Positions 42,353 through 63,292 of a stretch of 64,000 nt of DNA are shown piece after piece. A program made the position numbers and the translations under genes. The notes under the pieces are model-generated. The model had not been told where the DNA came from. It saw only the letters and a list, made by a program, of their open reading frames with translations, and did no database searches. This stretch comes from Natrinema salinisoli. GTDB taxonomy: Archaea > Halobacteriota > Halobacteria > Halobacteriales > Natrialbaceae. The DNA is taken from the NCBI RefSeq assembly GCF_020405205.1, contig NZ_CP084470.1, positions 62,001 through 126,000 on the forward strand. The letters are read 5' to 3'. How positions within the stretch are numbered: the first letter of the stretch is position 1; the number at the start of each line of letters is the position of its first letter.

Positions 42353-42422
42353 TGCTGAATACAAGGCGCGAATGGGGCACAGACTGAGCGCCCATCTGCG
42401 AGGGTAGTGATCGTTCAATAGA
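42353..42422 (-). repeat. cassette repeat, left arm (outlying copy)
   Basis: On the minus strand it reads TTGAACGATCACTACCCTCG and ends CATTCGCGCC-TTGTATTCAGCA, matching the left arm of the repeats at 51-63 kb. With the right arm at 43295-43379 it brackets the membrane-protein gene 42492-43238, giving a 1,027-nt cassette in minus orientation. Confidence 0.75.
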
Positions 42423-42491
42423 GATGGAGTACTTAGTAACCCGACGACATTGAAGTGTAAAAGAGATGTTTCCTCGGCGGAAGGAATTTCT

Positions 42492-43238
42492 TCAATTTCC
42501 CCACTTGGAGATGTGACTTGGTTCTGATTGGTCTTTGTTTCGATCCCGCCAGATCCCAACAAGTATCACACTCCATGTCACTATAGCTAAGAACGGGAGG
42601 TGCCATGACGGGAGAGAGATATCTGTGAACATCAGAATATACGGATACGCAACTGCAACCGTTAAGAGGGTAGCACCATACCCTACAGAGAAAAATGTCG
42701 GTTCAGCTGAACGGGCAGACAACCTACGGTATAACAAAAAGAGAGCATAAGGGCCAAGAACTACACATTTTGTGAGGTAAATGAAAAACGGGTATAGCCT
42801 CCAGGTTGCGCCTGCTTGACCGATTTTGATCAAGAATCGATCCCCAGTCGAATCTTCTACAGCAAAATGTCCATATTCAGTACTTCCTTCATTGATAGGA
42901 TGCGGAAACTTCTCATATTCATCGCACAGGAGTAGTCCGGGGCTGCACACAGGGGGTCTCCCTAATGACCGTAACCCAGAACTGATTGGCTCCTGTTCCT
43001 TCGCCTCTTCGAAGGCTCTTCGTTGGGTCTCAGAAAGGCTCTCAACGGGAATACCACCCTCACTTCTGTGAGAGGCGTGCTTGATGTACTCTTCATAATG
43101 TTCTGAAGATTCATGTGCGATGGCATAATGGGTGCTGTCTCCGTTATACGGTTTCATGAGTGTGCTTGGAAATAAGATAGCACCTACAAGGAGAACGGCG
43201 ATGATGAATGAGGCGCTCAAAAACCTTTTAGATTTCAT
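42492..43238 (-). CDS. cassette membrane protein, paralogue 1
   Basis: A 248-residue protein with an N-terminal helix (residues 6-25), an external region of about 125 residues and two to three C-terminal helices. It is clearly homologous to the proteins at 54938 and 58860. Shared blocks are AHESSE/VHEST, P-V-E-S/E-L-S-E-x-Q-RRAFEEAK, a Cys pair six residues apart (CSPGLLLCDEY), VEDSTGD, GPYALFLLYR and VGYGATLLTVAVAYPYILMFTDIS. Function is unknown. Gene length, topology and flanking repeats match paralogue 2 closely. The coding sequence is more AT-rich than the core genes. Confidence 0.8.
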   Translation of the reverse strand: MKSKRFLSASFIIAVLLVGAILFPSTLMKPYNGDSTHYAIAHESSEHYEEYIKHASHRSEGGIPVESLSETQRRAFEEAKEQEPISSGLRSLGRPPVCSPGLLLCDEYEKFPHPINEGSTEYGHFAVEDSTGDRFLIKIGQAGATWRLYPFFIYLTKCVVLGPYALFLLYRRLSARSAEPTFFSVGYGATLLTVAVAYPYILMFTDISLPSWHLPFLAIVTWSVILVGIWRDRNKDQSEPSHISKWGN

Positions 43239-43294
43239 TGAGCAAGAATCATCTGATCAGGTGTAAGTATTTTCTGGGATTTGAGTCATCAATA

Positions 43295-43379
43295 CGCCCA
43301 TCTACTGAACAGCTGGTTCATTGATTACAGGGTGAAACAAACAAGGCTATCGTGCTGAACTTATCCTCTGTATTTTGCA
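43295..43379 (-). repeat. cassette repeat, right arm (outlying copy)
   Basis: On the minus strand it begins TGCAAAATACAGAGGATAAG and continues TTCAGCACGATAGCCTTG, then GAACCAGCTGTTCAGTAGAT. It ends 57 nt before the ATG of paralogue 1, the same position as in the other cassettes. Confidence 0.75.
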
Positions 43380-48405: not shown

Positions 48406-48820
48406 GCAACAAAATTCCAACCTGTTACAAAATCTCTTTCGATTCTGCTCACTGACAATAATTGATACAGACCAATAGCGTATGCCTGCGTATTCAGGCG
48501 CAGGTCAAGCGATGGGCACTGTTCGACACCTGCTGTCAGTAGCTTGGCCGGATTTCTTCCGTAATTATTTTTTAGTGATACGATGTAATATAAAGTGCAA
48601 CGAATACCGTGAGATGCCGTCCCTGAACAGACAAGGGGTGGTGAGGAACGCGGTCTGTTCCTCACACGGCGATGACATGGTATTCGATGGGGCCTTATTG
48701 ACCGGGCCACAGCCCTATATTGGGGAGGAAACGAGAGTTTCTCCGGTATGCTGCCGGTTCCCCATGAGTGCGGGTTGGAACCTCAAACGTCACACTCGAC
48801 GGAAATCCCATGGTAGGATT
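48406..48820. other. intergenic, no gene recognised
   Basis: About 415 nt between the Tat lipoprotein and a TnpB-type end. An open frame at 48482-48889 runs through the hairpin into the methyltransferase relic and is not credible. The stretch 48560-48600 is AT-rich. Confidence 0.45.
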
Positions 48821-48840
48821 CCACGTCCTTCAGGGCGTGG
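48821..48840 (-). repeat. TnpB-type end hairpin at the break of a methyltransferase gene
   Basis: CCACGTCCTTCAGGGCGTGG between GGATT and AGGAGGTCAAT. The flanks match those of 43478-43497 (ATTGAC...CTCC, GGAATCC) on the minus strand. No tnpB remains. Confidence 0.65.
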
Positions 48841-48846
48841 AGGAGG

Positions 48847-49125
48847 TCAATTGCATAGCGTCTCCTTCGAGAAGCGTGTTTTGGATTGAGTTTGACTGCC
48901 AGCGACAAAGGTGTCCATTCCCCACCTGCTACTGAGGTCGAGCAGTACCTCGCCTGGTTCGTGCTCGGCCAGGTCGAAGTAGTAGTCAACACCCGCGAAC
49001 GAGTCGATCACCGCATCGGGAACGTATTCGAGCTCGTCGGTGCCGTAGCCGAGACGGACTGCGAGATCGCGGCCTGTCTCGAAGTGGAGCTCCGTGTCAG
49101 CGGACTCAGTGACGTCCCGGTACAT
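48847..49125 (-). pseudogene. 5' fragment of an ArsM-like SAM methyltransferase gene
   Basis: The first ~72 codons read FETGRDLAVRLGYGTDELEYVP, SFAGVDYYFDLAEHEPGEVLLDLSSRWGMDTFVA. This is the start of an arsenite-methyltransferase-like protein up to the SAM motif I, where DLGSGSG is expected and DLSSRWG is found. The remaining ~150 residues are missing; the frame runs into the TnpB-type end at 48821-48852. Insertion and later loss of an element is the simplest explanation. Confidence 0.65.
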
Positions 49126-50953: not shown

Positions 50954-51157
50954 ATCTTTACTTACAGTAAGTACTACTCGCAAATTCCGTCCTCGAGGAC
51001 AGCGATAAGTACAAACGAAGGTGTCACCGTGGATTCCATCTATTTCTTCGATATCTGTCAGAAACGACGTGCGGAATATAGAGAATGAGTTCAGCACGGC
51101 GGGTTCGTTTGTTTCATGCCGTGGCTACTGAACCAGCCGTTCTCCAGACAAAAACGC
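50954..51157 (+). repeat. cassette repeat A (degenerate left arm, clear right arm)
   Basis: The left arm is recognisable as TACTTACAGTAAGTACTACTCGCAAATTCCGTC. The right arm starts TGCGGAATATAGAG (51070) and continues AATGAGTTCAGCACGG, TTCGTTTGTTTCA and GAACCAGCCGTTC. It precedes the histidine kinase start by 56 nt. Here the left arm no longer ends in a clear TATTCAGCA. Confidence 0.7.
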
Positions 51158-54557: not shown

Positions 54558-54610
54558 ATGGCCTGTGTCGACGTCGCCACCCCTTGTTACTGTATAGTCA
54601 GAGAGTTCTG

Positions 54611-54632
54611 CATTCGCGCTCTATATTCAGCA
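54611..54632 (+). repeat. cassette repeat left-arm end after the kinase
   Basis: CATTCGCGCTCTATATTCAGCA is the last 22 nt of a left arm. Its terminal CTCTATATTCAGCA is the exact inverse of the TGCGGAATATAGAG type at 51070 except for one base, closing a 3,563-nt kinase cassette. Confidence 0.65.
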
Positions 54633-54686
54633 GACGATTTTTGGCATAATTCGGACAGACCGATAGCCACTTCGGTAACGGCTTTC

Positions 54687-54887
54687 CCTGTACTGAACGA
54701 TCACCAGCTCCGCAAATCATGCCAGAGCTCGTGCAACATTCGCGCGTTCTATCCAGCAGCGGCTGCTCATTCTACGCGAACACTGTCAGAAACGGCGTGC
54801 TGACTACAGAGGATGAGTTCAGCACGACGATCCCGTTCGTTTCACGCCCAATCTAACGAACTAGCCGTTCCGTAGATATGCGTATTG
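54687..54887 (+). repeat. cassette repeat B (full copy)
   Basis: The left arm CCTGTACTGAACGATCACCA... ends CGTTCTATCCAGCA (54758). A spacer of 39 nt follows, then the right arm TGCTGACTACAGAGGATGAG (from 54798), TTCAGCACGACGATCC, and CTAGCCGTTCCGTAGATATG. The gene of paralogue 2 starts 51 nt later. The spacer begins GCGGCTGCTCATTCTA, nearly the same as in copy F. Confidence 0.85.
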
Positions 54888-54937
54888 AACACTGAGTTCC
54901 ACAAAGCACTTACCTTCAATCGGATGATTGTTTTTTA

Positions 54938-55693
54938 ATGAAGTCTAGAACTCTTCTGATAGCGTCATTTATCGTCACGGTTCTCCTCACAGGTGCGATC
55001 TTCTATCCCGGTGCCCTTACAGAACCATATGGTCCTGATGAGTATGATCAAATGACTTATTCGGTTGTACATGAATCGACAGAGGCGTTTAATAAAACTG
55101 TACGTGAGAAGTCTCTTAATACGGAGGCAGCTATCCCTGTAGAAGAACTATCTGAGAACCAACAAAGAGCATTTCAGGAAGCGAAAGACCAACCACAAGA
55201 ACCACAAGAGTTCGGAGATAATACCCCTGGGCGACAATATTTAGAGATACGAACCTGTGATCCCGCGCTTATCCTCTGCGATGAATATAGAGAACTTCCA
55301 AACCCATCCAATTCTGGCAGTGAACATACTCTGATAGAAGATTCTGATGGAGAACAATATCTCGTAGAAGCACGCTCATTTAATACGGCAGGTGCAAGTT
55401 GGAATGGAGTTTCCCGTACAATTGAGCAGGGTGCCAGATTGTTGATTCTTAGTCCATATGTTCTCTTCCTTTCTTATCGAACGTGGACATCCACCCCACC
55501 TGCCCCAACACGCACCTCAGTAGGATACGGAGCTACTCTCCTCACCATAGTGCTTGGATATCCGTATCTCCTGATGTTCACAGATATCTCATTTTCGTCG
55601 CGGCATATTCCTGCCCTACTCGCGATAACATGGTGTGTAATACTCATTGAGGTGTGGCGGGGACGTACCGGAACTCAAGCAAAGTCAGGGTAA
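54938..55693 (+). CDS. cassette membrane protein, paralogue 2
   Basis: A 251-residue protein with an N-terminal helix (IASFIVTVLLTGAIF), an external region and three C-terminal helices. It shares with paralogue 1 the P-V-E-E-L-SENQQRAFQEAK block, the paired cysteines CDPALILCDEY, the IEDSDGEQYLVE strand, SPYVLFLSYR and VGYGATLLTIVLGYPYLLMFTDIS. The start to right-arm distance (140 nt) equals that of paralogue 1 (141 nt), so gene and repeat appear to have duplicated as a unit. No function is known; the external Cys pair suggests a disulfide. Confidence 0.8.
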   Translation: MKSRTLLIASFIVTVLLTGAIFYPGALTEPYGPDEYDQMTYSVVHESTEAFNKTVREKSLNTEAAIPVEELSENQQRAFQEAKDQPQEPQEFGDNTPGRQYLEIRTCDPALILCDEYRELPNPSNSGSEHTLIEDSDGEQYLVEARSFNTAGASWNGVSRTIEQGARLLILSPYVLFLSYRTWTSTPPAPTRTSVGYGATLLTIVLGYPYLLMFTDISFSSRHIPALLAITWCVILIEVWRGRTGTQAKSG

Positions 55694-55761
55694 ATCTACA
55701 ATGACAACATGGGAGAAGTCCTGTTTCACGGATAGCACTCTTTTACACGCTCAGTGTTCTC

Positions 55762-55833
55762 TCTGTACTTAGCGATTCCTCGCCAACGGTTTCAGCTGTA
55801 ATGACATGACCGATACGCGCGGTGTATGCAGCA
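55762..55833 (+). repeat. cassette repeat left arm before the recombinase (copy K)
   Basis: CTGTACTTAGCGATTCCTCGCC at the start and CGCGCGGTGTATGCAGCA at the end (55833). No right arm follows after 39 nt; the recombinase gene comes instead, and the matching right arm is at 56613. Confidence 0.65.
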
Positions 55834-55907
55834 CAGCTTGGCGGTACTCCCAATCCACCAGCATGAGGATCGTTACGGGTGTCTCATCACAACCAACCCG
55901 CGACTGA

Positions 55908-56582
55908 GTGGGCAGATCGCCACCGACGGGCCTAACCACCCGGCATACTCACGAAGACGTCCTAACCGACCGCGAGTTCGAACTCTTACTGGAAGCGTGT
56001 TCGACGCTCACAGAACCACACGACTTTGAAGCGCGGTTCATTTGTCTCATCGCAGGCCGACTCGGGCTTCGGGCTGGCGAAATCGCCCACTTTCAGACTG
56101 CATGGGTAAACTGGAACCACCGAAAGATTCGCATCCCACAGCACGAACCATGTCGGTGCGGATACTGCAAACGACAAGCTCGACAGGAAGCCACCCACAA
56201 CGACGACCTATCTGTCGAGGATACCGTCGCGTCCCGCTGGCATCCGAAGACCGTGGCCTCGGCTCGCCTCATCCCGTTCGACCTCTCGCTTCGGCTGGAA
56301 CTGTGCGTCGAACGCTTTGCCAACCGCTACGATTCGTTTCCTCGCTCGCGGTCAACAATCAACAGACGAGTACAGGCTGCCGCGAGCGCAGCTGACCTTC
56401 CTGGTCATGTCTATCCACACTGTCTGCGAGCGACCGCCGCCAGCTACCACGCCTACAAGGGCGTCGCCCCGGTGCCGCTACAGGCGCTGATGGGGTGGAG
56501 CGATCTGGCGACTGCACAGAAATACATCCGTATCTCTGGGACAGCGACTGCCGACGCACTGCGTCGAGTCCACCACCGATAG
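55908..56582 (+). CDS. tyrosine recombinase / integrase (catalytic domain type)
   Basis: A 224-residue recombinase. The catalytic set is visible: Arg55 (GRLGLRAGE), Lys114 (WHPKT), His171 and Arg174 (PHCLRATAAS), Trp197 in the last His/Trp position (MGWSD) and Tyr206 (AQKYIRISG). An extra Cys-rich segment CRCGYC near residue 82 may bind zinc. It lacks the N-terminal SAM-like core-binding domain of phage and Xer integrases, as do several haloarchaeal plasmid proteins of this type. The start is a GTG just after a stop codon. It lies between the left arm (55833) and right arm (56613) of one cassette repeat. Confidence 0.85.
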   Translation: MGRSPPTGLTTRHTHEDVLTDREFELLLEACSTLTEPHDFEARFICLIAGRLGLRAGEIAHFQTAWVNWNHRKIRIPQHEPCRCGYCKRQARQEATHNDDLSVEDTVASRWHPKTVASARLIPFDLSLRLELCVERFANRYDSFPRSRSTINRRVQAAASAADLPGHVYPHCLRATAASYHAYKGVAPVPLQALMGWSDLATAQKYIRISGTATADALRRVHHR

Positions 56583-56612
56583 AGATTCCTCAAACGTCCA
56601 TCAGTAACGGCG

Positions 56613-56655
56613 TGGCCGATACAGAGAAGGAAGGCAGCACGCGATCCGTTGATTT
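56613..56655 (+). repeat. cassette repeat right arm after the recombinase (copy J)
   Basis: TGGCCGATACAGAGAAGG...GCAGCACGCGATCCGTTGATTT resembles the start of right arms. It is preceded by CAGTAACGGCG, the conserved end of the 39-nt spacers. Later parts of the arm are not recognisable. Confidence 0.6.
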
Positions 56656-56733
56656 AACGGTGTTCATTGGATCAGTACACAGCTTCGGGATACTGTGAGG
56701 CTTTAACCAGTCCGCAGGAAAAGACGGTCCGTG

Positions 56734-57288
56734 TTAGCCGAGCAGATACCGAAGCTTCGGGTACCGCTCGAGGAGCGGTTGGCCGCCGACTTTGATCTGT
56801 TCGATGTAGCGGTCAAGGCCGGCGATGCGGCCCGCCGCAAAGGCACCAAGCGCCAGGAAGACGACGACGTAGATCAGCGTGGAGTCGAATAGTGCGAGCC
56901 ACTGTCCTTCCCAGCCGCCGAGGTAGAACATCGTCATCTGGATCGTGCCACCGAGGGCTGCCAGGCGGACGAATGCGCCGGTGATCAGCGCGACGCCGAT
57001 CAACACTTGAGTGACCGGTACGACGACGTTGATGATCTCGAGCAGGGCGGCGTTGCTGGCCATCGCGGCGAAGAGGCCGCTGACGGGGCTAGCCGGATCG
57101 ACGTGCATGAGATACCCGCTGGCGTCGAACGGCCAGTCAGTGATCTTGCCAAGTCCCGCGAACAGGATCATTCCGCCCATCACGACCCGCAGGGCGACGA
57201 CGAACCACGCCGTCAGTGCGTGGGGGTGTCCTTCGAGCGTAATTCCCGCGTATCGGCTTTCGAGTCTGTTTCGAATGGTAGTTGACAT
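56734..57288 (-). CDS. DoxX family membrane protein
   Basis: A four-helix membrane protein of 184 residues. VALRVVMGGMILFAGLGKITDWPFD is the DoxX/DoxD start pattern, continuing with VPVTQVLIGVALITGAFVRLAALGGTIQM. Members function in thiosulfate:quinone oxidation or as general redox-stress membrane subunits. It has minus orientation inside the cassette 56613-57454, unlike most of its neighbours. Codon use is GC-rich and core-like. Confidence 0.85.
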   Translation of the reverse strand: MSTTIRNRLESRYAGITLEGHPHALTAWFVVALRVVMGGMILFAGLGKITDWPFDASGYLMHVDPASPVSGLFAAMASNAALLEIINVVVPVTQVLIGVALITGAFVRLAALGGTIQMTMFYLGGWEGQWLALFDSTLIYVVVFLALGAFAAGRIAGLDRYIEQIKVGGQPLLERYPKLRYLLG

Positions 57289-57382
57289 GATCTGGTAACC
57301 TCTTGTATTTGTATAAAGGGGTCGAACGGGGATGATCGAGTACCCTTTATATAATGGGTCCGGGGACGGTCCCTACCTGTGC

Positions 57383-57555
57383 CCTGTACCGAGCGATCAC
57401 CACTTTCACAGACCGAGTCGAATCCCGAGGAACATTCGCGCTCTCTATTCAGCAACGATTGAGTGTTCTGTCCGGATATTTCCACAAACAGCGTACTGAA
57501 TACAGAGGATAAGTTCAGCACGACGGCTTTGTTTGATTCACACCAGATACAATGA
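57383..57555 (+). repeat. cassette repeat C (full copy)
   Basis: Left arm CCTGTACCGAGCGATCACCAC... ends CTCTCTATTCAGCA (57454). A 39-nt spacer follows, then the right arm TACTGAATACAGAGGATAAG (from 57494) with TTCAGCACGACGGCTTTG. The arm ends shortly after TTGATTCACACC. Confidence 0.85.
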
Positions 57556-57693
57556 ATAATAAATCCAGTAAATACGCTTATTTGATCATTAGAAGGGCTT
57601 AACCTTCCGTGTGAATTTATATATTACAATTCGATGACAATGTGTTCTAACTGATGCCTACTCTTTATAACCACTCATGAATATTCTCTGGTA

Positions 57694-58515
57694 ATGGATT
57701 CGCAGGACCAAGACCTCATTCGGCTACTCACAGATGCCACCAATCGGGCGGTTTTGACCGCACTCACCGATGCTTCTCACGGACTTTCCGTGACTGAGGT
57801 TGCTGAACAACTCGTTTCGGAGGACGAACGAGATATGGAGGAGATGGTTATCTCGCTCCATCACAACTATTTGCCTCGGCTTGACCAAGCAGGGCTGCTC
57901 ACGTACGACCGCGATGAAAACATCGTCACCAGCGAGAACTATGTGACAAGTGACACCGAGTGGATGGACATAGACGTACTCAAAGATCTGCTCTCACGGT
58001 TCAGCCTGGGTCGCAAACCAGACGAAAGCACCGTTGGGCGACTGGAGGGGCGTGAGGCCGTGTACGACTACTGCCGGGGGTTGGCTGATAGAGCTGAGGA
58101 TGAACTGTTTCTGATTTACGCCTCTGACGAACTCCTCGACGAGGAGTGTCTCCCTCATGCGGAGAGAGCTATCGAGCGAGGAGCTGAACTCCATGCTGGG
58201 ACGAAAAGTCGAGAGGCACGGGAGTTCTTTCGAGATCGTCTTCCAGAAGCGACGATATGGGAACCTCAGATGGACTGGATGTATGAACACTCGAGCTATC
58301 CCAAAGTGAGTCGGCTGATTGTCGCTGATCGAGTGAAAGTCGTTGTTGGTCTGTGGGACGAAGATGCTGATGGGGCGAAAACGGAAACTGCAATAGTCGG
58401 AGAAGGAACGACTAATCCCTTGGTGGTCCTTGTCCGTGAACTGCTCGGTCCTCGATTAGATCATCTCGATTACCAGAGTGACGAATTCCTTGGAGGTCTT
58501 CCGTTTGAAAGCTGA
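57694..58515 (+). CDS. HTH regulator with C-terminal sensor domain (DUF7344-like plus FilR1/TrmB-like)
   Basis: A 273-residue regulator. The N-terminal winged helix (LIRLLTDATNRAVLTALTDASHGLSVTEVAEQL; HHNYLPRLDQAGLLTYD) resembles the DUF7344-type domain also seen at 22923. After a short linker the C-terminal part (GREAVYDYCRGLADRAEDELFLIYASDELLDEECLPHAERAIERGAELHAGT, and PKVSRLIVADRVKVVVGLWDED) looks like a phospholipase-D-like or TrmB sensor domain without catalytic residues. It probably binds a small ligand. It is the only gene of the cassette 57494-58629. Confidence 0.78.
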   Translation: MDSQDQDLIRLLTDATNRAVLTALTDASHGLSVTEVAEQLVSEDERDMEEMVISLHHNYLPRLDQAGLLTYDRDENIVTSENYVTSDTEWMDIDVLKDLLSRFSLGRKPDESTVGRLEGREAVYDYCRGLADRAEDELFLIYASDELLDEECLPHAERAIERGAELHAGTKSREAREFFRDRLPEATIWEPQMDWMYEHSSYPKVSRLIVADRVKVVVGLWDEDADGAKTETAIVGEGTTNPLVVLVRELLGPRLDHLDYQSDEFLGGLPFES

Positions 58516-58557
58516 CCACCAATATCCGCTGCGAGGAATGAGTTCAATAACTGCTTC

Positions 58558-58760
58558 TCCTGTACTGACTGATCACTACGTCGAAGATCGAGCCGAACCC
58601 CGTGCGACATTCGCGCTGTGTATTCAGCAAGACCTGAGCGAACTCCCGGGCCACTGCCAAGAACAGCGTGGTGAATACAGAGGATGTGTGCAGCATGACG
58701 ACCCCGTTTGTTTTGGATCGAAAGTAGTGTACCAGCTGTTCACTACACATGCAAACTGAA
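58558..58760 (+). repeat. cassette repeat D (full copy)
   Basis: Left arm TCCTGTACTGACTGATCACT... ends CTGTGTATTCAGCA (58629). The 39-nt spacer is followed by the right arm TGGTGAATACAGAGGATG (from 58669), GCAGCATGACGACCCC and ACCAGCTGTTCACTA. Paralogue 3 begins 100 nt later. Confidence 0.85.
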
Positions 58761-58859
58761 CGATTAGGCGTACGAAGACAGTAAGGAGTTGTGACTGAGT
58801 CAAATTCCATTACACCCTAGACCAAAAAACACTTACTGTTGACACGAAGATGAGTGATG

Positions 58860-59642
58860 ATGAAGGTGAAAGTTACGACTCTATTTTCGATACTCGTTGT
58901 TTTCTTTTTGTTTGCCACTATAGTTCATCCAATGTCGCTCACAAATCCCTATCATAAATCTGGACCATCGTATGAGATCTCTCATGAGCCAACAAATGCC
59001 TTTAAAGAAACGGTAAGAGAGAAAAACATCAGTACATCAAATCCGACACCTGTAGATGACCTTTCATCAGACGCACAGCGAGCATTCGAGGAAGCAAAAG
59101 ACCAGCCCCGGAGGAGTGGGGATAGATATGCTGGCTCGCAATACCTTGGAAGCGTCAACGTGTGTAAAGACTATCTATATTATTGCAATGGTTATACAGA
59201 CTCGCCAGAATTCCCTACTGCTGAGACTCATGAAAACTCTCCTAGTGGAGTATATAGTCCACAATATGGTCTCGTAGAAGATACAGATGGTGAGATATAC
59301 CTCATAGAAACTGATATTGGAGGAGATAGTTTTGGCCTTGGAGGATTTGTCGAACTGTTTCTCAAGTTTATCTCCTTTGGACCGTATGCTGTATTTCTTA
59401 CACTACTAACATGGACTCAACGTAATAATAATCCTCATAAAATACGCAACTTTGCAGGATATGGAGTAGGAATGATTGTGCTGGCTTTTGTATTTCCGTA
59501 TCTCATAATGATTCCCTATATTCCAGCAGGCCCAACAACTATACTCGGATTTGTAGGCGTAACATGGCTAGTGATATCGTACGGAGTCATAAATCTCACA
59601 AGGTCAAAAGAAATACTAATGAGAGATAGAGGCGAGTGGTGA
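58860..59642 (+). CDS. cassette membrane protein, paralogue 3
   Basis: About 260 residues, the most diverged and most AT-rich member of the family. The N-terminal helix is followed by SHEPTNAFKETVREKNIS, the P-V-D-D-L-SSDAQRAFEEAKDQP block shared with the other two, a Cys pair (VCKDYLYYCNGY), VEDTDGEIYLIE, and three C-terminal helices (GPYAVFLTLLTW, GYGVGMIVLAFVFPYLIM, TILGFVGVTWLVISYGV). Three adjacent starts exist (GTG 58854, ATG 58857, ATG 58860); the last matches the MK start of the paralogues. Function is unknown. Confidence 0.78.
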   Translation: MKVKVTTLFSILVVFFLFATIVHPMSLTNPYHKSGPSYEISHEPTNAFKETVREKNISTSNPTPVDDLSSDAQRAFEEAKDQPRRSGDRYAGSQYLGSVNVCKDYLYYCNGYTDSPEFPTAETHENSPSGVYSPQYGLVEDTDGEIYLIETDIGGDSFGLGGFVELFLKFISFGPYAVFLTLLTWTQRNNNPHKIRNFAGYGVGMIVLAFVFPYLIMIPYIPAGPTTILGFVGVTWLVISYGVINLTRSKEILMRDRGEW

Positions 59643-59692
59643 TACTATTTATTAATTCAAATTCATATATGGAGCTCAACTCCTTTCTTTCT

Positions 59693-59805
59693 GCGGGTCC
59701 AGCTATGCCCAGCATTTTGGACGTAACATGGCTATGATATACCACGAGATTATCAGTCTCACACGTTTAAAAACGATGCTGAGAGAAGATAGGACACTGG
59801 ATTAG
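59693..59805 (+). pseudogene. C-terminal remnant of a fourth paralogue
   Basis: Just downstream of paralogue 3, one frame reads AGPAMPSILDVTWL and, after a frame change, MIYHEIISLTRLKTMLREDR. These match AGPTTILGFVGVTWL and ISYGVINLTRSKEILMRDR at the end of paralogue 3. It is a broken partial duplicate within the same cassette. Confidence 0.65.
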
Positions 59806-59839
59806 GAATATTTCAGGACCACTAAGCAATGTGTGTCTT

Positions 59840-60039
59840 ACCTGTACTAAGTGATCACCACTTCCGTAGATCGATTACAATCTCGTGCCGCATCCGCGCG
59901 GTGTATTCAGCATGTCTTGCTCGATCTATCCAGTAACTGGTAGAATTGGCGTGACCGATACAGAGAATGAGTTCAGCATGATGGCTTTGTTTATTTCGTT
60001 CTCAGTCGATGAACCAGCCGTTCAGCAGATCTGCGTATG
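59840..60039 (+). repeat. cassette repeat E (full copy)
   Basis: Left arm CCTGTACTAAGTGATCACCA... ends CGGTGTATTCAGCA (59912). The 39-nt spacer, which contains its own CCAGTAACTGG palindrome, is followed by the right arm TGACCGATACAGAGAATGAG (from 59952), TTCAGCATGATGGC and GAACCAGCCGTTCAGCAGAT. Confidence 0.85.
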
Positions 60040-60098
60040 GAACAGTACCCGTGTCACTATCCCAAAAAGAATTCATGTACATATTATTAACATATAGT

Positions 60099-60514
60099 AT
60101 GAATCGACGGCAGTATCTCTCTGTAGTTACCGCTGGTGCCACAATCTGCTTTTCTGGCTGTACGGGCTTTTTCAACGATGATGTCGAACTTCTCGGCGTT
60201 GCCCTCGGAAATATGCAGAGTAAGGAACGGACACTGTCCGTTCGAATTACGAACGAGGGGGAAATCATTGATGAATCTACTCATGAACTCCCCCAGAGGA
60301 CTCTTGGACTTTCCTCGACTGTACATGGCCACATGAACCGGGTCAGTTCGCTATTACAGGCCAGCTGGAGGGGGATAAAGAGTGGGTTGAACGCGAACTC
60401 ACTAATGCCGAATCTGATTGCGTAGCCGTCACTATCAAAGTCACCACGTTCGACCACGTCGGATTTACGGTTACTGAAACCTGTGACACCTCTGCTGAAA
60501 CGGAACAGTGTTAG
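60099..60514 (+). pseudogene. small Tat lipoprotein gene with a one-base frameshift
   Basis: MNRRQYLS gives a twin-arginine-like start, and FSGC provides a lipobox (Cys21). The frame reads well to STHELP, then loses sense at a run of five C (about 60287-60292). Adding one C restores PEDSWTFLDCTWPHEPGQF, then GQLEGDKEWVERELTN and VTTFDHVGFTVTETC to a stop at 60512-60514. The product would be about 138 residues. Either a true inactivating slip in a C run, or a sequencing error. A haloarchaeal beta-sandwich lipoprotein of unknown role. Confidence 0.65.
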
Positions 60515-60550
60515 CTCAATATTGGTAGAGAGTTCTGTAGTAATTTCTTC

Positions 60551-60695
60551 AGCTGTACTGAGCGATCACTGCCGTCACAAATCGGCCCCGATCTCATCCG
60601 ACATTCGTGCGTTCTATCCAGCAGCGGCTGCTCATTCTATGCGAACACTGACAGAAATGGCGTGCTGACTACAGAGGATAGATTCAGCAGACTCC
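60551..60695 (+). repeat. cassette repeat F
   Basis: Left arm AGCTGTACTGAGCGATCACT... ends CGTTCTATCCAGCA (60623). The 39-nt spacer is nearly identical to that of copy B. The right arm TGCTGACTACAGAGGATAGA (from 60663) with TTCAGCAGAC is then truncated. Confidence 0.85.
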
Positions 60696-60998: not shown

Positions 60999-62063
60999 AT
61001 GTCCATTAACGAAGACAGACTCGAAGAACTGATAGAAACTGCCACTACCGATATCGGCGCGATCGCGTACGCACCGCTAGCCGTCATCGGCGATCGGCTC
61101 GGACTCTACGATGCTCTTGCCGAACACGGACCGCTCACAACGAGCGAACTCGCCGACCGCACTGACACCGCTGAGCGGTATGTGCGCGAGTGGCTCGCTG
61201 CCAGTGCAGCCAGCGATTACGTGAGCTACGACCCCGAGACGGAGCACTACAGCCTCTCCCCGGAACAGGCACTCTTGCTAGCCGATACGGAAGGTCCAGC
61301 ATCTCCGCTTGCGGGCTTGTTCCAGATCGCTACCGCCGCCGGTAAGATCACGCCCAAGATTGAGACAGCCTTCCGTACCGGTGACGGCGTCGGATGGCAC
61401 GAACACGACGAGGGGGTCTTCCAAGGCATGATGCGCGCCTCCGAATTTGACTTCAAGGAAAACCTTGTTTCCGACTGGATCCCTTCCCTCGACGGGGTTG
61501 ACGAGAAACTCCAAGAGGGCGCACGAGTCGCTGACATCGGGTGTGGCCAGGGCGAATCGATAATCACTATGGCTCAAGCCTATCCCAAGTCGACGTTCGT
61601 CGGATACGATTACCACGAGGGGTCTATCAAAGCGGCACGCGAACGCGCGGCTACCGCCGAGGTAACCGATCAGGTCAGCTTCGAGGTTGCGAGAGCCAAG
61701 GAGTACGACGGTAGTGATTACGACTTCGTCACCTCCTTTGACTGCCTGCACGACATGGGTGATCCAGTCGGTGTTGCAGCGCACGTCCGAGAGACACTCG
61801 CTGACGACGGCACGTGGATGATCGTAGAGCCACTCAGTGGTGATCGAGTTGAGGAGAATCTGCATCCGCGTGGGCGGATGTATTATTCGGTGTCTACGAT
61901 GATGTGTACGCCAAACGCACTCAATCAGGAAGGTCCCCACGCATTAGGCGCTCAGGCTGGGGAAGAACGGCTACGTGAGGTGGTCACCGAGGGTGGCTTT
62001 TCGGAGTTCCGCCGCGCGACCGAGACGCCGCCGTTCGAGATGGTTCTTGAAGCAAAACCGTAG
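60999..62063 (+). CDS. winged-helix SAM-dependent methyltransferase
   Basis: A 354-residue protein. The N-terminal ~85 residues form a winged-helix dimerisation domain (IGDRLGLYDALAEHGPLTTSELADRTDTAERYVREWL). The SAM motif I, VADIGCGQGES, is at residues 177-187. Motifs YDYHEG and FVTSFDCLHDMGDP follow, and the C-terminus ends VTEGGFSEFRRATETPPFEMVLEAKP. This matches small-molecule O/N-methyltransferases of the Rv2258c type. The substrate is unknown. The gene is GC-rich and stands alone between repeats F and G. Confidence 0.88.
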   Translation: MSINEDRLEELIETATTDIGAIAYAPLAVIGDRLGLYDALAEHGPLTTSELADRTDTAERYVREWLAASAASDYVSYDPETEHYSLSPEQALLLADTEGPASPLAGLFQIATAAGKITPKIETAFRTGDGVGWHEHDEGVFQGMMRASEFDFKENLVSDWIPSLDGVDEKLQEGARVADIGCGQGESIITMAQAYPKSTFVGYDYHEGSIKAARERAATAEVTDQVSFEVARAKEYDGSDYDFVTSFDCLHDMGDPVGVAAHVRETLADDGTWMIVEPLSGDRVEENLHPRGRMYYSVSTMMCTPNALNQEGPHALGAQAGEERLREVVTEGGFSEFRRATETPPFEMVLEAKP

Positions 62064-62339
62064 CGGGGGTGGGTGCCTCATCTTGACACGAAGATATGAC
62101 TACGGCGATTTCGAGGAGGCTGACGCGGTCTCGAAATCTGGCTCAGAACAGCAGAGGGTTCCGACGTACTCCTCGGCGGTGTGTCTCTGAGCGCGTATCC
62201 GCCGGTCATCACGTCCAGCACGTTCTGAACCCTCGGGAGAACCCGGCGTCGAAACGCGTTGTAGGCGTCGGCCGATCGTCCCATGCTCGTTCGTGTCGGA
62301 CCTGTGCCGGATAGCCCCGATATATTATCAGAAACGCCC
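62064..62339. other. intergenic; left arm expected here but not recognised
   Basis: By analogy with the other cassettes a left arm should lie here. GTGTCGGACCTGTGCCGGATAG near 62293 is the only vague resemblance. TTATCAGAAACGCCC at 62325-62339 resembles the conserved end of the 39-nt spacers. Confidence 0.4.
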
Positions 62340-62415
62340 TGCTGAATACAGAGGATGAATGCAGCACGGGGTTGCCGTTCATTTCACGTCGAGACGGGTG
62401 AACCAGCCACTCACT
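62340..62415 (+). repeat. cassette repeat G (right arm)
   Basis: TGCTGAATACAGAGGATGA, then GCAGCACGGGGTTGCCG, TCATTTCACG and GAACCAGCCACTCAC. Its first 19 nt are the perfect inverse of the end at 63148-63166. Confidence 0.8.
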
Positions 62416-62495
62416 ATATCTGACTATCTAACGGCTGTTTCAGCGGGAAAGTAATCGAAAATAGGAATTCAATAGAACGACTTGGTTATGGTGTG

Positions 62496-62990
62496 TTATT
62501 CCGCGGATGATTTTGTCTTAGTACCAATGACATCATAAATTTCTATGTGTTCCTTTTCTTCCAAATAGGACGCTTCCACCCGGTCGTACACCTGTGCTTG
62601 ATTGAAATTTCCACGGTCCGTGAAATCGTTATGACAACCCGTGAAATCACCAGTTTCCCATTGCTCACTACAGACGCCGATCACATACCAAACCTGATCG
62701 TATGTCTGGTGTAATTCGTCGTGAAACGTCTCCGAGATTATCGGTTGGTCGGGGTCATCAATGTAATCACTCCACTGTTCGGAAATATAGCCGTCCACTT
62801 TTTCTGCACGATCATCAAAGGAAACATCCAGTACGGTCTCGTTGGCACCGTCCGTTGGCCAGCCTTCAATACTTTTTAGTTGAACATATCCACTCACGGA
62901 ACCGGCACTCTCGAAGGCAGATGCCTGACAACCTGCCAATCCAGCAGCACCAGCTACTGCGCCTGCAAGAACATCACGTCGGGAGGGCAT
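62496..62990 (-). CDS. hypothetical Tat lipoprotein
   Basis: A 164-residue secreted protein. MPSRRDVLAG gives a twin-arginine motif and GLAGC the lipobox (Cys21). The mature part is acidic with Cys in VCSEQWETGDFTGC, which may pair. No known domain. It has minus orientation between two inverted right-arm repeats (62340 and 63166), which fits an inversion relative to the plus-strand cassettes beside it. Confidence 0.75.
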   Translation of the reverse strand: MPSRRDVLAGAVAGAAGLAGCQASAFESAGSVSGYVQLKSIEGWPTDGANETVLDVSFDDRAEKVDGYISEQWSDYIDDPDQPIISETFHDELHQTYDQVWYVIGVCSEQWETGDFTGCHNDFTDRGNFNQAQVYDRVEASYLEEKEHIEIYDVIGTKTKSSAE

Positions 62991-63139: not shown

Positions 63140-63166
63140 CGCTGAACTCATCCTCTGTATTCAGCA
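63140..63166 (-). repeat. cassette repeat right-arm start, inverted (copy H1)
   Basis: On the minus strand it begins TGCTGAATACAGAGGATGAG and continues TTCAGC before diverging. It lies 150 nt upstream of the start of the lipoprotein gene, the usual place of a right arm. Confidence 0.75.
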
Positions 63167-63219
63167 CGCAGTTTCTGATATTTCTCGGACAAATTGGTCA
63201 TCGCTCCGTTATCTGCTTG

Positions 63220-63292
63220 TCTGTACTTACCGATCACTATCCCTCGCAGATCCCGTCTCAGACTGTACCTCATTCGCGTTATCTATTCGGCG
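63220..63292 (+). repeat. cassette repeat left arm (copy H2)
   Basis: TCTGTACTTACCGATCACTA, then CCTCGCAGATCCCGTC and CATTCGCGTTATCTATTCGGCG. It is the last recognisable arm in the window. Confidence 0.75.

Follow-up and report, generated by a model that had tools for sequence, protein, structure and literature searches.

Haloarchaeal repeats with a nearly fixed 39-nt spacer as probable sites of cassette recombination in an integron-like system

Examination of a 64,000-nt stretch of the Natrinema salinisoli contig NZ_CP084470.1 (hereafter the window) revealed an array of repeats that are probably the recombination sites of a haloarchaeal integron-like gene-cassette system. In the mechanism that we propose, a short tyrosine recombinase whose gene lies in a block bounded by cores would bind the core arms and exchange strands in a 7-bp centre, the presumed crossover position, and cassettes as well as the recombinase's own gene would in this way be inserted, lost or swapped. 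The fixed 39-nt spacer would act as a ruler holding two recombinase-bound cores in register, in addition to reflecting common descent. A carrier with IS5-like terminal repeats and 8-bp target duplications holds the solo cassettes and part of the arrays, and would move them by ordinary transposition.

Anatomy of the sites and of the array

The original prediction had described five repeat copies (B to F) in which a left and a right arm are separated by exactly 39 nt. The arm ends and starts were correctly placed (Table 1) and the spacer is exactly 39 nt in all five copies. A search with the full arm consensus and spacing of that prediction, allowing up to 3 mismatches, matched 2 copies for a chance expectation of 0. 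The arms are inverse copies of each other only approximately (8, 9, 9, 12 and 12 of 14 positions complementary). The spacers, said to differ widely, do more than that: B and F agree at 36/39 positions and the other pairs at 19-24/39, against a mean of 9.7/39 (maximum 21) in a shuffled control, and they are therefore homologous. The right arm does hold the second inverse pair, TGCTGAA-N13-TTCAGCA, and the left arm has its counterpart, TGCNNCATTC-N7-GTATTCAGCA.

Each arm forms part of a site of 27 bp, TGCnnnATnC-N7-GnATnnnGCA (model derived from full sites), in which inverted 10-bp arms lie either side of a 7-bp centre, as is typical for tyrosine-recombinase cores. A full site consists of a left core, 39 nt and a right core, with core centres 66 bp apart. 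Left-type centres are mostly GCGCNNT and right-type centres mostly AGAGGAT, no centre sequence being common to all cores. The core model at score 14 gave 0 matches in window positions 1-40000.

Further half copies occur at 51042-51148, 54580-54637, 55750-55833, 56609-56690, 62326-62430 and 63140-63292, outside the coordinates first described, and the feature is therefore wider, covering about 51-63.3 kb. The window contains no tRNA gene as a target. Pairs in which a right-type core is combined with a left-type core of the other strand, at a distance of about 128-132 bp, recur at window positions 63140-63292 and at two other loci (L081, L082). The proteins encoded at 54938-55693 and 58854-59642 resemble each other by eye and have no clear Pfam family.

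Table 1. Features of the cassette array in the window
Feature	Position	Strand	Evidence
Separate single cassette outside the main array, cores 42353-42379 and 43353-43379	42353..43379	-	profile match
Core A, right-type, TGCGGAATAT AGAGAAT GAGTTCAGCA; left end of PAS-kinase cassette	51070..51096	+	PWM score 23.0, profile match
PAS/histidine kinase cassette gene, 1114 aa	51213..54557	+	Pfam
Core A', left-type	54606..54632	+	core model
Site B left core	54732..54758	+	core model
Site B 39-nt spacer	54759..54797	+	spacing measured
Site B right core	54798..54824	+	core model
Cassette gene, 251-aa hypothetical protein	54938..55693	+	open reading frame
Recombinase block left core	55807..55833	+	homology with Haloprofundus halobius plasmid starts 55807
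Tyrosine recombinase, 224 aa, catalytic domain only	55908..56582	+	PF00589 6e-15
Recombinase block right core	56613..56639	+	score 12.8; block homology stops at 56641
DoxX-like membrane protein cassette gene	56734..57288	-	Pfam
Site C left core	57428..57454	+	profile match
Site C 39-nt spacer	57455..57493	+	spacing measured
Site C right core	57494..57520	+	core model
DUF7344 protein cassette gene	57694..58515	+	Pfam
Site D left core	58603..58629	+	core model
Site D 39-nt spacer	58630..58668	+	spacing measured
Site D right core	58669..58695	+	core model
Cassette gene, 262-aa hypothetical protein	58854..59642	+	open reading frame
Site E left core	59886..59912	+	core model
Site E 39-nt spacer	59913..59951	+	spacing measured
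Site E right core	59952..59978	+	core model
Cassette gene, small hypothetical protein (138-aa ORF)	60009..60425	+	open reading frame
Site F left core	60597..60623	+	core model
Site F 39-nt spacer	60624..60662	+	spacing measured
Site F right core	60663..60689	+	core model
HTH/methyltransferase cassette gene	60999..62063	+	Pfam
Core G, right-type	62340..62366	+	score 28.8
Cassette gene, 164-aa Tat-signal-like protein	62496..62990	-	weak evidence
Core H, right-type, inverted	63140..63166	-	profile match
Core H', left-type, degenerate	63266..63292	+	profile match

The tyrosine recombinase and its block

The window recombinase gene occupies the place of a spacer, with a left core on one side and a right core on the other. 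The catalytic residues of tyrosine recombinases (R, HxxR, H/W, Y) are all present in the family as R55, H171xxR174, W197 and Y206, which are invariant in 12 aligned sequences. Models of XerA/XerC/XerD, of integron integrases and of DNA invertases gave weak matches far under their cutoffs, a PDB sequence search found no relevant relative of the recombinase, and its AlphaFold model (pLDDT 41) was too poor to use. A CxCxxC motif, possibly zinc-binding, is conserved at residues 82-87 (alignment A3).

Comparison with a plasmid of Haloprofundus halobius revealed a block of 836 bp, 81.7% identical, which begins with the first nucleotide of the left core and ends 2 bp beyond the right core. Alignments across genera also recovered recombinase blocks of 780-850 bp. 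Every endpoint lies 7-13 nt from a core centre in the clearest of these pairs (L020-L034, for example), but many of the listed block endpoints have no recognised core nearby. The recombinase moves from one genus to another as a unit of about 840 bp with cores at its edges. At 55870-55935 the window matches the N-terminus of the relatives' recombinases (first ~19 codons) out of frame with the ORF starting at 55908, suggesting that this copy may be shortened or disabled and making its activity uncertain; several relatives keep intact frames. The recombinase would be the enzyme that acts on these cores.

Cassettes and their exchange

Defining a cassette as the segment from a right-type core to the next left-type core allowed us to delimit 89 cassettes with a median length of 991 bp. 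A single ORF of at least 60 aa was found in 62 of them, so that the arrays consist mostly of single genes separated by recombination sites, as in integrons. Relative to the site, 47 cassette genes lie in '-' and 41 in '+' orientation.

The related Natrinema genomes G008 and G018 have, at two chromosomal sites, common flanks (94-97% identical at site 6, 91-96% at site 5) with a different gene between them. The match between the two genomes breaks off within the core of the right-type end at both sites, at L090:4690 (after TGCTGAATACAGAGG) and at L089:6819. The break at the left-type end of site 5 runs through the core, whose conserved sequence blurs the exact point; at that of site 6 the alignment resumes 24 nt past the left core, so this break is not at the core, and site 6 of G018 showed no left core. 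One G008 cassette is present at both of its sites (88.2% identity); its endpoints lie 1 and 23 nt from core centres. In genome G033, too, one cassette occurs twice (97.3% identical). The PAS-kinase cassette of the window is shared over 3.5 kb (88.5%) with locus L082 of Natrinema G028; its left-type end lies 13 nt from a core centre in both, and at the other end the distances are 58 and 233 nt. In a block comparison, 19% of all endpoints fell within 15 nt of a core centre versus 1.2% at random, a figure inflated by the choice of loci around cores.

Homologous recombination in the flanks is another way in which cassettes could be swapped, and excised cassette circles were not seen. The orthologous region of locus L102 in other species is variable and without cores. 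The cassette at site 5 of G018 (L130) lacks the usual flank consensus beside its cores, which suggests that the cores alone may suffice.

Carriers with IS5-like ends

Terminal inverted repeats (TIRs) of the GGCTCTGTTGAAA type lie outside terminal cores at fixed distances, mostly 40 nt from right-type and 43 nt from left-type cores (114 in some tails), at 12 left and 22 right ends. Target duplications were found in two units only: the chromosomal cassette L101 of genome G000, which faces an empty orthologous site in G008, has an 8-bp duplication with 7/8 positions matching, and L077 has a perfect one (8/8). The solo carriers thus have the ends of MITEs or IS5-like elements; the TIR-bounded pairs L037 and L108 showed no duplication. 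In the N. salinisoli genome this TIR also flanks an element that holds DUF772 and DDE_Tnp_1 transposase fragments; the transposase of that kind would be the one that moves the carriers. The IS6 family was rejected for this role: PF13610 is absent from the N. salinisoli genome, and four matches elsewhere have no matching TIR pair nearby. A 3.1-kb element at L098:10830-13908, whose TIRs are of the GGCTCTGTTGAAA type and which has an 8-bp duplication (GAACCACC), carries IS5-like transposase fragments and a BAT/HTH_10 regulator.

These ends, at their fixed distances from the cores and with their 8-bp duplications, as well as the IS5-like element bearing the same TIR, would also be expected if the repeats were non-autonomous MITE-like units or ends, the arms subterminal transposase-binding sites, and the arrays tandem or nested IS5-like insertions with passengers. 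We consider this unlikely. A general motif scan for TIRs near cores placed them outside terminal cores and showed none at the internal sites (left core, 39 nt, right core), and the recombinase block is bounded by cores rather than TIRs. The reading is weakened by the swap sites, where genes were exchanged with carrier and flanks kept and with breakpoints at a core.

Spacer constancy and the folded-structure readings

A constant spacer had been taken to imply a structural constraint, either a folded RNA or DNA hairpin or a spaced protein-binding site. Among left-right core pairs less than 150 nt apart in the fetched haloarchaeal loci, 39 of 47 were exactly 39 nt and 6 more within 2 nt of this value, the other 2 being unrelated pairs with anchor distances of 108 and 132. 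The spacing, which recurs across haloarchaeal genera, is dominant in related genomes but not absolute, and such constancy supports a constraint. Near-complete profile matches had no net indel in 72 of 94 cases, a figure somewhat favoured by the training of the profile on 39-nt sites. Over these 94 alignments, spacers showed 23 indels in 3666 aligned positions, and their columns match the consensus only about half the time, which suggests that spacer length is held more tightly than spacer sequence, with the same bias toward 39-nt sites. In the comparison of indel rates by region, the flank values are unusable since local alignments end early there.

Of the two kinds of constraint, a spaced protein-binding site fits, because the arms belong to 27-bp inverted-repeat cores and cassette breakpoints lie at cores; the hairpin is unsupported. 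That the palindromic core should be a folded RNA or a regulatory, terminator- or attenuator-like hairpin between genes is very improbable, even with inverted arms around a constant 39-nt loop and a few arm positions that change on both sides. RNAalifold predicted no structure on 58 sites, and 24% of arm cells are unpaired. Covariation of the inner arms on these sites does exceed that of shuffles (0 of 500) but is confined to few columns, mainly 25/73 and 26/72 and to a lesser extent 21/77 and 22/76; for the within-core and outer-arm palindromes it was not above shuffles. Such restricted covariation is also expected of two half-sites binding one protein, and it falls short of the conserved covarying secondary structure of a structured RNA. 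Moreover, the genes have no common direction with respect to the site (47 versus 41), and half sites and recombinase-containing versions exist. A single-stranded, attC-like fold of the DNA during recombination is compatible with these data. An Rfam scan of the region had no match at the repeats; at 48688-48862 of the window it gave a sub-threshold match to HgcC RNA (31 bits versus a gathering threshold of 50).

Finally, there is next to no chance that the core encodes a conserved peptide of 13 codons (39 nt), since the similarity of one frame in several copies (ATFALSIQQRL..CQKRRAEYRG) is set against a six-frame test that effectively refutes a coding explanation: no frame is clearly depleted of stops (48 in the frame concerned, where 57 are expected), and the similarity excess is larger in a different frame.

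Comparison with known systems

Like integrons, both bacterial and those of archaeal MAGs with an IntI-type integrase, the haloarchaeal system combines a tyrosine recombinase with arrays of mostly single-gene cassettes and with composite palindromic sites, in which two inverted core sites surround a spacer and which share one orientation per array. In contrast to IntI, the recombinase is a short catalytic-domain protein with a CxCxxC motif, and the IntI model TIGR02249 gave 20.7 bits for the window copy and 16-24 bits in three relatives, against a cutoff of 265. Also unlike in integrons, the spacer length is nearly fixed, both attC boxes (RYYYAAC/GTTRRRY) occur together in 0/60 sites, cassette genes lie in either orientation rather than a shared one, the recombinase gene sits in a core-bounded block, and the carrier is IS5-like. 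The system thus works like an integron but has neither an IntI integrase, nor attC boxes, nor a common gene orientation.

XerA, XerC and XerD are the best family matches of the C-terminal part of the recombinase, and dif sites also have two inverted arms around a short centre; however, the scores (about 23-51 bits) are far from the cutoffs (220-335), the N-terminal core-binding domain is unmatched, and the haloarchaeal sites are many per genome. FimB/FimE-type invertases are likewise small and consist of a catalytic domain only, and a DNA-invertase model matched weakly, but no invertible switch was seen and many haloarchaeal sites flank gene cassettes. Tn916-type tyrosine-recombinase transposons tolerate differing coupling sequences, which resembles the variable 7-bp centres described here; unlike in these transposons, the haloarchaeal sites mark the ends of gene cassettes, and the outer carrier is bounded by TIRs and an 8-bp target duplication. 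The latter traits are those of IS5-family elements and haloarchaeal MITEs, from which the carrier differs in holding exchangeable cassettes between recombinase cores. MITEs and SMRs of haloarchaea have been described (PMC3119063). Integrons with IntI-type integrases were reported in archaeal MAGs of nine phyla, the main text being without Halobacteria (PMC9668308).

We lean towards regarding the system as an independently evolved, class-wide archaeal counterpart of integrons, with a minimal self-travelling recombinase, twin-core ruler sites, IS5-like carriers and active cassette exchange. A literature search, with most subscription papers outside its reach, found no description of a haloarchaeal cassette system. 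Haloarchaea are known for extensive gene exchange; cassettes with defined sites would offer them a means of swapping single genes and would allow the prediction of mobile accessory genes.

Distribution in the Halobacteria

Matches to the R1 profile were found in 168 of 242 sampled Halobacteria, belonging to 60 of 74 genera, and the recombinase family (E<=1e-30) in 52 of the 242, many genomes with sites thus lacking a close recombinase. Phage records and viral contigs gave no match. Across the wider set of 52 genomes with a recombinase, no obvious difference in site number was apparent by eye. At least 8 sites, counted by hand among the matches listed (at most 10 per genome), were present in 10 of 17 genomes with a close recombinase (E<1e-100, a cut chosen after viewing the list) versus 32 of 225 others (Fisher p=7e-5, the genomes not being independent).
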